A stretch of DNA of 64,000 nucleotides, taken from Amyelois transitella. Its lineage: Eukaryota > Arthropoda > Insecta > Lepidoptera > Pyralidae. The stretch covers positions 2,713,001 to 2,777,000 of the forward strand of contig NC_083514.1 of NCBI RefSeq assembly GCF_032362555.1, given 5' to 3'. The first letter of the stretch is position 1. Every line of letters begins with the position of its first letter. The notes under the pieces are model-generated. The model ran no database searches and was not told the origin of the DNA. It saw nothing but the letters and a program-made list of their open reading frames with translations. Positions 28,791 through 41,046 of this stretch are shown here, piece after piece. Position numbers and translations under genes: made by a program.

Positions 28791-29304
28791 ATGTATTTGT
28801 ATTATTTTTTTTTATTTCACTTGTATCTCATCCGTACGCAACAACGAAAAAACCAGCTTACACCAATGGAAAGCTTCAATGATTTTCTTAAAAGCTATAA
28901 ATAATTAATTAATCCAGGGTCGCGTGGTAATGAGTAGCGTGAACGGAGCAGCAAAAACAGATGTACGACTGGAGAATTACAAAGATGCATTAGTACTTTT
29001 TAGTGACTCGCGGTAGGTCTCCGGTATTATTGAGCACAAAAGTGATTTAATCAGAATATCTATAGGTATTTTTGTGGTTACTCCTTACTCTTACATTTTT
29101 TGCTAACTCTGCGGGCAATATAAGAGAGTAACGCATGAAAGGTTGAAAGGGATAATTCAGAGCAGATAAGTGCATACATGAAACAAACTAATTTACCTTC
29201 AGATCAAATTCAAATTTTTATTTGCATAAAATGTGTGCGAGTACAAGATGTTTAACTTATATACCTACCAGATTTCAAATTATTAAAATTAGCAAAATAA
29301 GCCC

Positions 29305-29420
29305 TTTTATAATTCGGCATCCTCTGATTTCAGTCTATTGGCTCGCAAACCATCTTTTGCGATATCCAGCCATTATCTTTTCGGCTTGCCACTTCTACTT
29401 GGGCCTGGCGGTCGCGGCGG
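29305..29420 (-). pseudogene. LINE reverse transcriptase C-terminal remnant (unit B copy)
   Basis: Minus-strand reading GPSRSGKPKR, stop, WLDIAKDGLRANRLKSEDAE. The same stretch in unit A (34090-34210) has TCA instead of the TAA stop and reads KRSWLDIAK. Similar to the closing part of many insect LINE ORF2 proteins. Confidence 0.5.
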
Positions 29421-38300: not shown

Positions 38301-41046
38301 ACGGTTCTTTGAAATAAAATACATATGTACATAAATGAATCACCAAATGCTTGAATTGGCCTGCGTGAGATGTAAGTAATTTGAAAATTATCATGCAATC
38401 AAAAGATAACAAGATAGTGTTTAATAATATCAATTCATTCATAGGTCATGATCACACTGCACCCGGTCTTTCCCTGGGAAAAAGACACGAAATTAATATA
38501 GAACTAAATAAGTATAGAAGTACCTTCAGTATCCATATTAAGTTCCCACCACATAAAAACCATCTGCGCTCGTCCAGTGCCCGAAGCACTGAATTGTTGT
38601 TTGACTGTCCGCTTGAAGTCTATAGGGCTCCGGCCCGACCAGTCGTAGTAGAACACCGGGATAGGGTCTGAGAGCTCCCGGAACGATGAACGAGGGAGTT
38701 GGGATAGTTGGATATCGTGAACAGCTGCAGATCCCGCGCAGTCTTTCATCTGCAAATCAAATAGATACTGGATCTACCTATCTGACTGAGAAATAGGTTT
38801 CTGGCTGGGGCTAATTAAATGCCTTCGAAATATAATTCCCAACAAAAACTTACGGAATATTATGAAGGTATAGATTCAAAATTGCTTATATATTTTTTTT
38901 TTATTTGTCTCTTTTTAGTTGGTCAGTCGGAGAAAGAAGGAAAATTTAAATTTTCAGATAAGCCTGGATGTTGTATCTACTGTTATATCATCATGTTTGA
39001 TATGTTAGTGGGCTAGTTCTATGTTTACGCCAAAAAGACATTGGAAATGGACTAAAAGACATACAGGTACATATTTTTTGGTTAAAAGTTCTATTCCTGA
39101 CTTCAATAAAGTTGCAGTTTACTTTATTTATGAAAAAAATTATGTACCTTTTGTGGCGTTCTGAGTATCACTTCCAAGTCTTCATCGGCCAAATCATTGA
39201 GTTTGTTCCACTTCTGTAATGTTGGACATTCCACCAACTGCACGTATATTACAGCGGAGTCTGGAACCACAATGCAATCCTCTTCAAGCAGGTGCTTGTG
39301 GGCATGAGAAAATGTTGATAGGGCTCCTGAAACATTGTGTTGGATAGGAATGTTAACTTAATATTTGATGTTACTAGCCAAATTGATTGAATTGTTATTT
39401 GTTGAATTATAAAAAGATTTATTGGTTTCTAATCTAGGAAAATTGGTGTCAAGCAAGCAACATACCATAAATCCTTCCACTTAAACACTTCGAAGCTAAC
39501 ATAAATCTATAAAAGGAATTGGTATTGTCTATTGGAACTTTGAAAAAACTAAAACAGTGTAGTTAGGATATCTCTAGTACAAGGAAAATAATTCATGGAC
39601 ACTATTTTTTATGGAAATTCCTACGGAAGCAAAGCATGGTGCAAATGCTGTTAGTTTATTAAGTTCAGCTTATTTTAAAAAAGAGCTAATAAAAAGTCAA
39701 AAGTCACTAAACTGCTATTCCTGATTGCTATTATCTATGCAATTTATGAGTATCTTGGGAAATACTTAAGACTTGTAAGAATAAGTCTAAGTATTTTCCA
39801 AGACACTCATCAATCAATGACATTTATACTTATAGATATATAAATTTCTCCTGTCACTATGTTCGTTCCCATACTCCTCCAAAACGGCTTGACCGATTGT
39901 CATGAAATTTTGATTTTTTTTAATTTTTTTTCATACCCTTTTATCACCAACCCCTATTTTTAAAAGCCATTTTAATAATGAAAATACTTTTTATCCCCGG
40001 TCGATAACTGATCAATCATCATTTAATATTATTGTGGCAAAACAATATTTGGCCAGTGAGCTACATATATTTTACATTTAAAAACAAAAGTGCAGTGATA
40101 TTAGCACATTCGCTCTAAGCTGCTAGTATATAAATATACTTATGCAAAAAAATTGAGGAAAAAATACAGGAAATAAAGATGCCAATATGTACCTTCCCCA
40201 ATCAATTCTGTGTCAAACACTTCCGTCACCAATATGTTGGCCCTCTGCTTCATATCTCCATCATCACCAACCGTCAACTCTGTGGATCTCTTCGGTATCA
40301 GGGTTATTTTATCAGCAACACCATTACGTGCCAGTATCTGAGCGCAACATTCAGCCATAGGCTTAAAAGCTTCACAGGCTATGATGGAGTCCGCTCCACA
40401 TCTCGCAGCCATGATAGAAAGGAGACCAGTGCCTGTGCCTGTAACATGAAAAATAAATTATGTTGCAACATTTTCATATTGTAACCATGCTCAAGGAATA
40501 ATTGATTATGATTCATCTAGAATAGTCTTTACTTTGATGAACCTTGAAGTCAGGTTTTCAGATCAAATAAAGTTTTTGTGTGCTAATTCAATCAATTTAT
40601 TTTGATTTGTAAAAATAGGTTAGAAAGGGTTTTGTTTTAATCAGTGCTCTGCTTCCAGCCTACAGGCGAACAAATGCTTGTAGATATTATTACATAAAAA
40701 ATAATTAATAAAACTTAAACCTAAGAACTTATAATATCTTGATGCGTGAATGCATTTTTGTATATAGGTAGCTTTGGTTGTGTTGAAGGATGTGTAATGT
40801 CATGGGTATGTCAGAGAATATTTGCCATTTACCAATGTCTAAAACGTTAGCTTGCTTGCCCTCATTGTGCATCTTTTCTATAGCTAGCTGGAGAGCTCTA
40901 TAGTACTTTTTATTCCTCTCTGTATCATGGAGCATATCCGCGAAAGCACTCCTTGCTATCTCCTGATGGTAATCGTAATCTTCGTGTTGAACGTCCCATT
41001 CTGTGCTCCCAGTTATAGGGTTTCTTTTTTGAGTAAAAACTTGCAT
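35328..41046 (-). CDS. PRMT7: Protein arginine methyltransferase 7, full-length gene using 3' exon block A
   Basis: Transfers methyl groups from S-adenosylmethionine to protein arginines (type III, monomethylation, in the family). Eight exons on the minus strand, all GT-AG: 41046-40833, 40438-40193, 39326-39148, 38749-38524, 38221-37446, 36869-36721, 36307-36148, 35444-35328. Phases join cleanly to 688 aa, close to the usual ~690. The N-terminal Rossmann module has motif I VLDIGTGTG (residues ~68-76), an acidic residue in ACEAF (E94) and the double-E loop [12 protein letters not shown] (E144 and E153). A second, degenerate methyltransferase module starts near residue 289; its motif I equivalent is VVLDLNGSS (~408-416), which lacks the glycine-rich signature, as expected for PRMT7. 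Intron 3 contains the right edge of a tandem duplication carrying a second set of exons 4-8 further downstream. Cytochrome c1 starts divergently ~900 bp away. Family identity is secure; which block the mRNA uses is inferred from proximity. Confidence 0.93.
35512..35795 (+). mobile_element. Family B SINE with tRNA-like head (unit A)
   Basis: Duplicate of the copy at 30722, in PRMT7 intron 7 of block A; head GTGGCGTCAGCGGTCGAACG. Confidence 0.6.
35922..36068 (+). mobile_element. LINE 3' end, family C (unit A)
   Basis: Same element as at 31125, with GCAAGTGGAAAGAGG that unit B has partly lost. Confidence 0.75.
36370..36680. other. Extra intron 6 sequence in PRMT7 unit A
   Basis: Intron 6 is 413 bp in unit A and 168 bp in unit B. 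The extra AT-rich stretch has no feature I recognise. It may be an insertion in A or a deletion in B. Confidence 0.6.
36930..37112 (+). mobile_element. LINE 3' tail in PRMT7 intron 5, unit A only
   Basis: GTTTGTTACCGCTTCTTCTG...GAAGCGGCAGTAAACTTAG ending in a (TTGAAT)n run, which I recognise as a common lepidopteran LINE 3' end. Unit B lacks it at the matching place. Confidence 0.65.
39746..39810. other. Pre-miRNA-like imperfect hairpin in PRMT7 intron 2
   Basis: The left arm 39746-39774 (ATGAGTATCTTGGGAAATAC and nine more bases) pairs with 39783-39810 across a short loop of 8-9 nt. About 25 of 28 positions pair, with isolated mismatches. It is not among the repeat families I recognise here. 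It could be a miRNA precursor, a MITE remnant or chance. Confidence 0.45.
39830..40060 (+). mobile_element. Degenerate transposon fragment in PRMT7 intron 2
   Basis: AAATTTCTCCTGTCACTATG, then CTCCAAAACGGCTTGACCGA and CATGAAATTTTG, a run of short motifs that recurs in lepidopteran interspersed repeats. Ends are not clear. Confidence 0.45.

Follow-up and report, generated by a model that had tools for sequence, protein, structure and literature searches.

Two intact head-to-tail copies of exons 4-8 in a PRMT7 gene of Amyelois transitella: a probable partial tandem duplication

Here we report a PRMT7 gene in the pyralid moth Amyelois transitella whose last five exons stand twice, head to tail, behind a single set of exons 1-3. 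The gene lies on the minus strand of a 64,000-base stretch of DNA (contig NC_083514.1, positions 2,713,001 to 2,777,000), which was analysed as a whole and is called the window below; its features are collected in Table 1. The 3' half of the gene appears most likely to have undergone an ordinary partial tandem duplication, while an assembly artefact is possible, and the arrangement could possibly give rise to alternative PRMT7 isoforms.

Read through the copy that adjoins exons 1-3, the gene is complete in eight exons, begins with a start codon at 41046 and encodes a product of 688 amino acids. This product matches the mouse chain 4c4a over its full length and both modules (residues 1-651 to 1-653, E = 7.2e-147), and matches over residues 3-647 the chain 3wst (E = 8.6e-112), which we take to be PRMT7 of C. 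elegans. The first module carries VLDIGTGTG at residue 68 and a second motif of 11 residues at 144, presumably the SAM-binding and double-E regions, and the stretch WRDHWMQ at residue 317, present in both copies, forms an R-D-H-W-M loop at the THW position and aligns with W310-Q316 of the mouse protein. By this two-module similarity and the motifs of its catalytic module the gene is PRMT7, and methyltransferase activity is predicted for its product. A tblastn search within the 64,000-base window found no second copy of exons 1-3. On the plus strand, exons at 41947-42890 were read as presumably those of cytochrome c1, and this putative gene, with its start near 41947, stands head to head with PRMT7.

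Table 1. Positions in the window of the PRMT7 exons, the two repeated units and associated features
Feature	Position	Strand	Basis or remark
PRMT7 exon 1, ATG to donor	40833..41046	-	single copy in window
PRMT7 exon 2	40193..40438	-	single copy in window
PRMT7 exon 3, phase 0 end	39148..39326	-	single copy in window
Unit A (proximal, adjoins exons 1-3): exons 4A-8A with the intron-3 end before them and ~1.4 kb of 3' flank	33935..38902 (or 38899)	-	BLAST and alignment
Exon 4A, phase 0, opens ATG AAA GAC	38524..38749	-
Low-divergence stretch, 571 columns with one mismatch, intron 4 / exon 5	37929..38501	-	possible recombination or conversion tract
Exon 5A, THW loop and start of second module	37446..38221	-
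Exon 6A	36721..36869	-
Exon 7A, phase 0 end	36148..36307	-
Exon 8A with stop	35328..35444	-
A-to-B junction: tail of A meets intron-3 sequence, about two bases (CT) belonging to neither side	33932..33935	-	by eye
Unit B (distal copy)	about 29123..33932	-	BLAST and alignment
Intron-3 SINE of unit B, ~20 bases in from the junction, flanks CAATTTTAAATA / CAATTTTGAATA	33650..33913	-	without counterpart in A
Exon 4B	33295..33520	-
Exon 5B	32217..32992	-
Exon 6B	31680..31828	-
Exon 7B	31352..31511	-
Exon 8B with stop	30543..30659	-

Self-comparison of the window with BLAST resolves the two head-to-tail units into three collinear matches, 2552, 269 and 1752 aligned columns long and 91.2%, 94.8% and 96.4% identical, and with three pieces in the same order their likeness cannot be chance. 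The duplicated stretch measures about 4.8-5.0 kb; it takes in the end of intron 3 and extends some 1.4 kb beyond the stop, with the downstream breakpoint 1.42 kb after the stop of B. Read by eye from the alignment, these limits agree to a few bases with the outer limits (29124 and 38902) given in an earlier, sequence-only reading of this DNA. Exons 4-8, which span 38749-35328 in A and 33520-30543 in B, have lengths of 226, 776, 149, 160 and 117 bases in both units, with equal phases, AG and GT at all splice sites and a common stop. That reading had proposed two intact tandem sets of these exons, alike in each of these respects, with exons 1-3 present once, and the arrangement is confirmed; the donor (39148) and the two acceptors (38749 and 33520) that it named are correct, and exon 3 does open in frame onto either block (3 to 4A, 3 to 4B).

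The repeated block starts at residue 214 of the protein, within the Pfam PRMT_C domain (residues 176-342, from a profile search on the B isoform). It had been described as a pair of alternative pseudo-methyltransferase modules, a description that proves too narrow, since each block also supplies the catalytic module with its THW loop and with part of its barrel. The available part of one study (PMC7224190) presents PRMT7 as a pseudo-dimer in which the N-terminal domain is active and the C-terminal one inactive, and the active-site pocket of the mouse enzyme as lined by W282 and R311-M315. The counterparts of these residues, in an alignment counted by hand, are W281 and the R318-M322 loop of the block; because the block carries this catalytic barrel part and the THW loop, the active site would be rebuilt with A and with B alike. 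The catalytic-half part of the block is identical in protein between A and B, and the first amino-acid change falls at residue 406. There are exactly six changes (N406D, L442F, N479S, V546F, R630W and A633L), as the sequence-only reading had estimated; it had placed most of them in the second module, whereas all six lie in that inactive module, its start being set by eye from the alignment at about residue 375-390.

At the nucleotide level, 24 of 1428 coding sites differ between A and B, 17 of them at third positions, as do 157 of 2916 alignable noncoding sites (5.4%), two stretches of A that cover non-homologous inserts with their edges (37130-36925 and 36672-36340) being excluded from the pooled noncoding divergence and from the run tests. 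The unit contains 22 indels, counting those at the excluded stretches and the SINE, and none is coding; neither block has a frameshift, a premature stop or a lost splice dinucleotide. Estimates of dN range from 0.005 to 0.007 and of dS, by three methods, from 0.042 to 0.059, giving dN/dS of 0.11-0.16. Seven nonsynonymous changes are seen, against the 24-33 that one freely drifting block would lead one to expect (P from 5e-5 to 4e-8), and both blocks are shown to have been constrained for most of the time since the sequences separated; if that separation was allelic, the constraint is uninformative on the present-day use of B. Codons 630-633 (36199-36210 versus 31403-31414) contain four base changes in eleven bases, including GCG to CTG, a cluster that could reflect one multi-base event or paired compensating one-base indels.

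Divergence is spread unevenly along the unit. The low-divergence stretch in intron 4 and exon 5 was matched in a fraction of only 0.0004 of 5000 permutations, in which coding and noncoding counts were kept apart, and the longest identical run, of 341 columns, is of a length reached in a fraction of 0.017. Divergence also varies among four noncoding segments (P = 0.0005, or 0.0009 without the short intron-3 piece) in a heterogeneity test that left out introns 5 and 6. The unit ends are among the most divergent parts, with 12 of 137 sites differing in the intron-3 piece and a 115-base stretch of the tail being 89% identical. Gene conversion between paralogs and recombination between alleles would each fit this patchiness, which does not choose between them.

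The units also differ in their mobile elements. The SINE in B is bounded by a 12-base target-site duplication with one mismatch, and introns 5 and 6 of A hold extra sequence that is non-homologous to B; the mobile-element polymorphism noted in the sequence-only reading is thus real, the SINE being found in B only, and small indels are present as well. Counting fragments and the B copy itself, diverged copies of this SINE, whose family, like the general look of the sequence, points to a moth or butterfly, occur at 21 places in the window (1068-47280). Positions within 25 bases outside a SINE edge make up 1.6% of the window, and the A-to-B junction is about 20 bases from such an edge, a proximity test that was conceived after the position of the junction had been seen. 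Elsewhere in the window, a short LTR element at 23170-25351, with 214-base end repeats that differ by 1 mismatch and an apparent TACAT on both sides (by eye), encloses one 552-aa frame with DUF1759, and we take it to be a recent, internally deleted retrotransposon of BEL/Pao type. A kelch-like family gene occupies 55707-59230, where a BTB-BACK frame is followed by a kelch-like frame (by eye).

The junction between A and B contains no N bases, nor does any other part of the 64,000-base window. In the native breakpoint flanks (about 30 bases on each side) the longest exact match is 5 bases, against a chance control of 500 random window pairs that average 5.8 bases and of which 93% reach at least 5. 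A self-comparison of the whole window revealed no repeat pair linking the two native breakpoint flanks. Repeat-mediated unequal crossover was set aside for want of above-chance homology within about 30 bases of the breakpoints. A junction of this kind, lacking homology, fits end joining, and a random misjoin would look alike. Since assemblers join by overlap, an overlap-free junction should trace back to a read, to gap filling or to a scaffold join made without N, and a misjoin based on overlap or k-mers would find no material to act on here. With neither N nor homology at the junction, a real end-joined duplication suits the data better than an overlap-based misjoin.

The chief alternative, raised already in the sequence-only reading, we regard as possible though on the doubtful side: it is that two parental haplotypes of a single-copy PRMT7 were laid head to tail in the assembly as a false heterotype duplication, the join having been made, in our proposal, by a chimeric read, by the filling of a gap or by scaffolding without N. 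The low dN/dS, the freedom of the coding sequence from indels and the presence or absence of transposable elements are as in alleles of a working gene; the high divergence at the unit ends points the same way, as does the SINE adjoining the junction, since assemblies break at repeats, and the divergence patchwork fits allelic recombination as well as conversion. Precedents are at hand in the false exon gains documented in the available text of Ko et al. 2022 (PMC9516828) and the residual haplotig duplication documented, in the portion of that report at hand, for a moth assembly (PMC9526047). Yet the junction itself speaks against an artefact, there being no assembly gap between the copies, although wrong gap filling is possible. 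In the available text of Ko et al. 2022 (PMC9516828), false duplications are mostly separated by gaps and sometimes joined by wrong gap filling, neither of which is found there at true ones, and one genuine tandem duplication, specific to an allele and showing haploid depth, is also described. The moth study, in the portion at hand, likewise treats copies on the same contig as plausibly real (PMC9526047); it finds piN/piS somewhat inflated in such copies relative to haplotigs, a pattern by which the low dN/dS observed here lends no support to a real duplication.

The amount of divergence bears on the same choice. In the accessible part of a butterfly survey, species values of pi4D range from 0.0044 to 0.0428, with a mean of 0.0175 (PMC6672018). 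The synonymous and noncoding divergence between A and B (4-6%) is near or above the highest of these species means, which counts against an allelic origin; two of the three dS estimates, 0.0423 and 0.0427, fall just below that maximum, and because a single locus can exceed a species mean, a dS near the butterfly maximum counts for less against alleles. Weighing these points, we consider a real head-to-tail partial duplication probable. The assembly shows A and B as continuous without N, and their tandem state in the actual DNA is probable. Nearly all of the weight is shared between the duplication and the artefact, and the small remainder is for unforeseen cases. The differences between A and B may have built up between paralogs, or may be older, if the event brought together two alleles that already differed; as a real duplication of the latter kind would be divergent from the start, dating by dS is not pressed.

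Should the duplication be real, end joining without homology would have duplicated the 3' half of PRMT7, and exons 1-3 with block A would make up ordinary full-length PRMT7. Hexamers AATAAA follow the stop of A at +421 and +488 and are kept in both units; because A's stop and hexamers are reached first, exons 1-3 plus A (N+A) would be the main product. Block B would then form an intact spare set of last exons behind A and, since A has its own stop and hexamers, could be reached only if 3'-end formation after A were bypassed. Where that step was sometimes missed, exon 3 would join 4B in frame, and the resulting N+B enzyme would match N+A in its catalytic half and differ from it at six residues of the inactive half. 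Among 25 joins tested (exon 3 and 4A-7A to 4B-8B), 11 keep a full open frame, including 3 to 4B (688 aa), the ordinary crossovers 4A to 5B, 5A to 6B, 6A to 7B and 7A to 8B, and 7A to 4B; the last of these, between two phase 0 boundaries with exon 8A skipped, opens a 1125-aa protein with two blocks. An open frame alone is no evidence of use, and that a single promoter might feed both blocks, as the sequence-only reading had suggested, is offered as a hypothesis only.

Two sub-cases of the real duplication, whose probabilities overlap with its own, concern the role of B. It seems unlikely that B is a real but unused duplicate that will eventually decay: B does come after the point where A has its stop and poly(A) hexamers, with a SINE in its leading intron and no repeat of exons 1-3 in front, but the shortfall of nonsynonymous changes relative to free drift of one block and the absence of any frameshift, stop or splice-dinucleotide loss stand in the way, an objection that weakens if the duplication was recent and joined two alleles. 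A regulated two-isoform gene, in which exon 3 is alternatively spliced to 4A or 4B to yield two functional enzymes that differ in their pseudo-methyltransferase half, is rather improbable. The complete 3-to-4B frame, the retention of splice sites, stop and AATAAA hexamers in A and B, the constraint on both blocks and the confinement of all six changes to one module would agree with it; but B lies downstream of the poly(A) hexamers of A, only six residues differ, two of them through the four-base cluster at codons 630-633, and the constraint may be inherited from alleles. That one PRMT7 gene yields several architectures, namely N+A, N+B and a three-lobed form made by the 7A-to-4B join and predicted to carry two barrel-plus-pseudomodule blocks behind a single catalytic Rossmann half, is very improbable.

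If real and expressed, the duplication would amount to a natural experiment on the inactive half of PRMT7, with the catalytic half identical and only the pseudo-half varying. If false, it is a warning, as a gapless, in-frame and splice-perfect false duplication would slip past most annotation checks. None of the open-licence PMC papers found on PRMT7 in Lepidoptera or in insects names a PRMT7 duplication in its title or abstract opening, and a search of viral contigs gave no relatives of exon 5, only 29 pattern matches.

Several known systems resemble the arrangement in part. Like the false exon gains and heterotype duplications in the available text of Ko et al. 2022 (PMC9516828), it consists of adjacent, divergent copies of part of a gene; unlike the false heterotype duplications presented there, the PRMT7 copies have no gap between them and meet at a junction without homology. 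To animal PRMT7 (mouse 4c4a; 3wst) the likeness is full-length, but here the 3' five exons alone are doubled. Genes of the serpin-1 type, among them Manduca serpin-1, have duplicated C-terminal exons behind a single N-terminal set. In insect genes of this type, as the available part of a report on PpSerpin-1 indicates (PMC10513286), many alternative C-terminal exons give known isoforms, and short single regions have been multiplied; in PRMT7, by contrast, a five-exon block with its 3' flank is doubled once in the genomic sequence.
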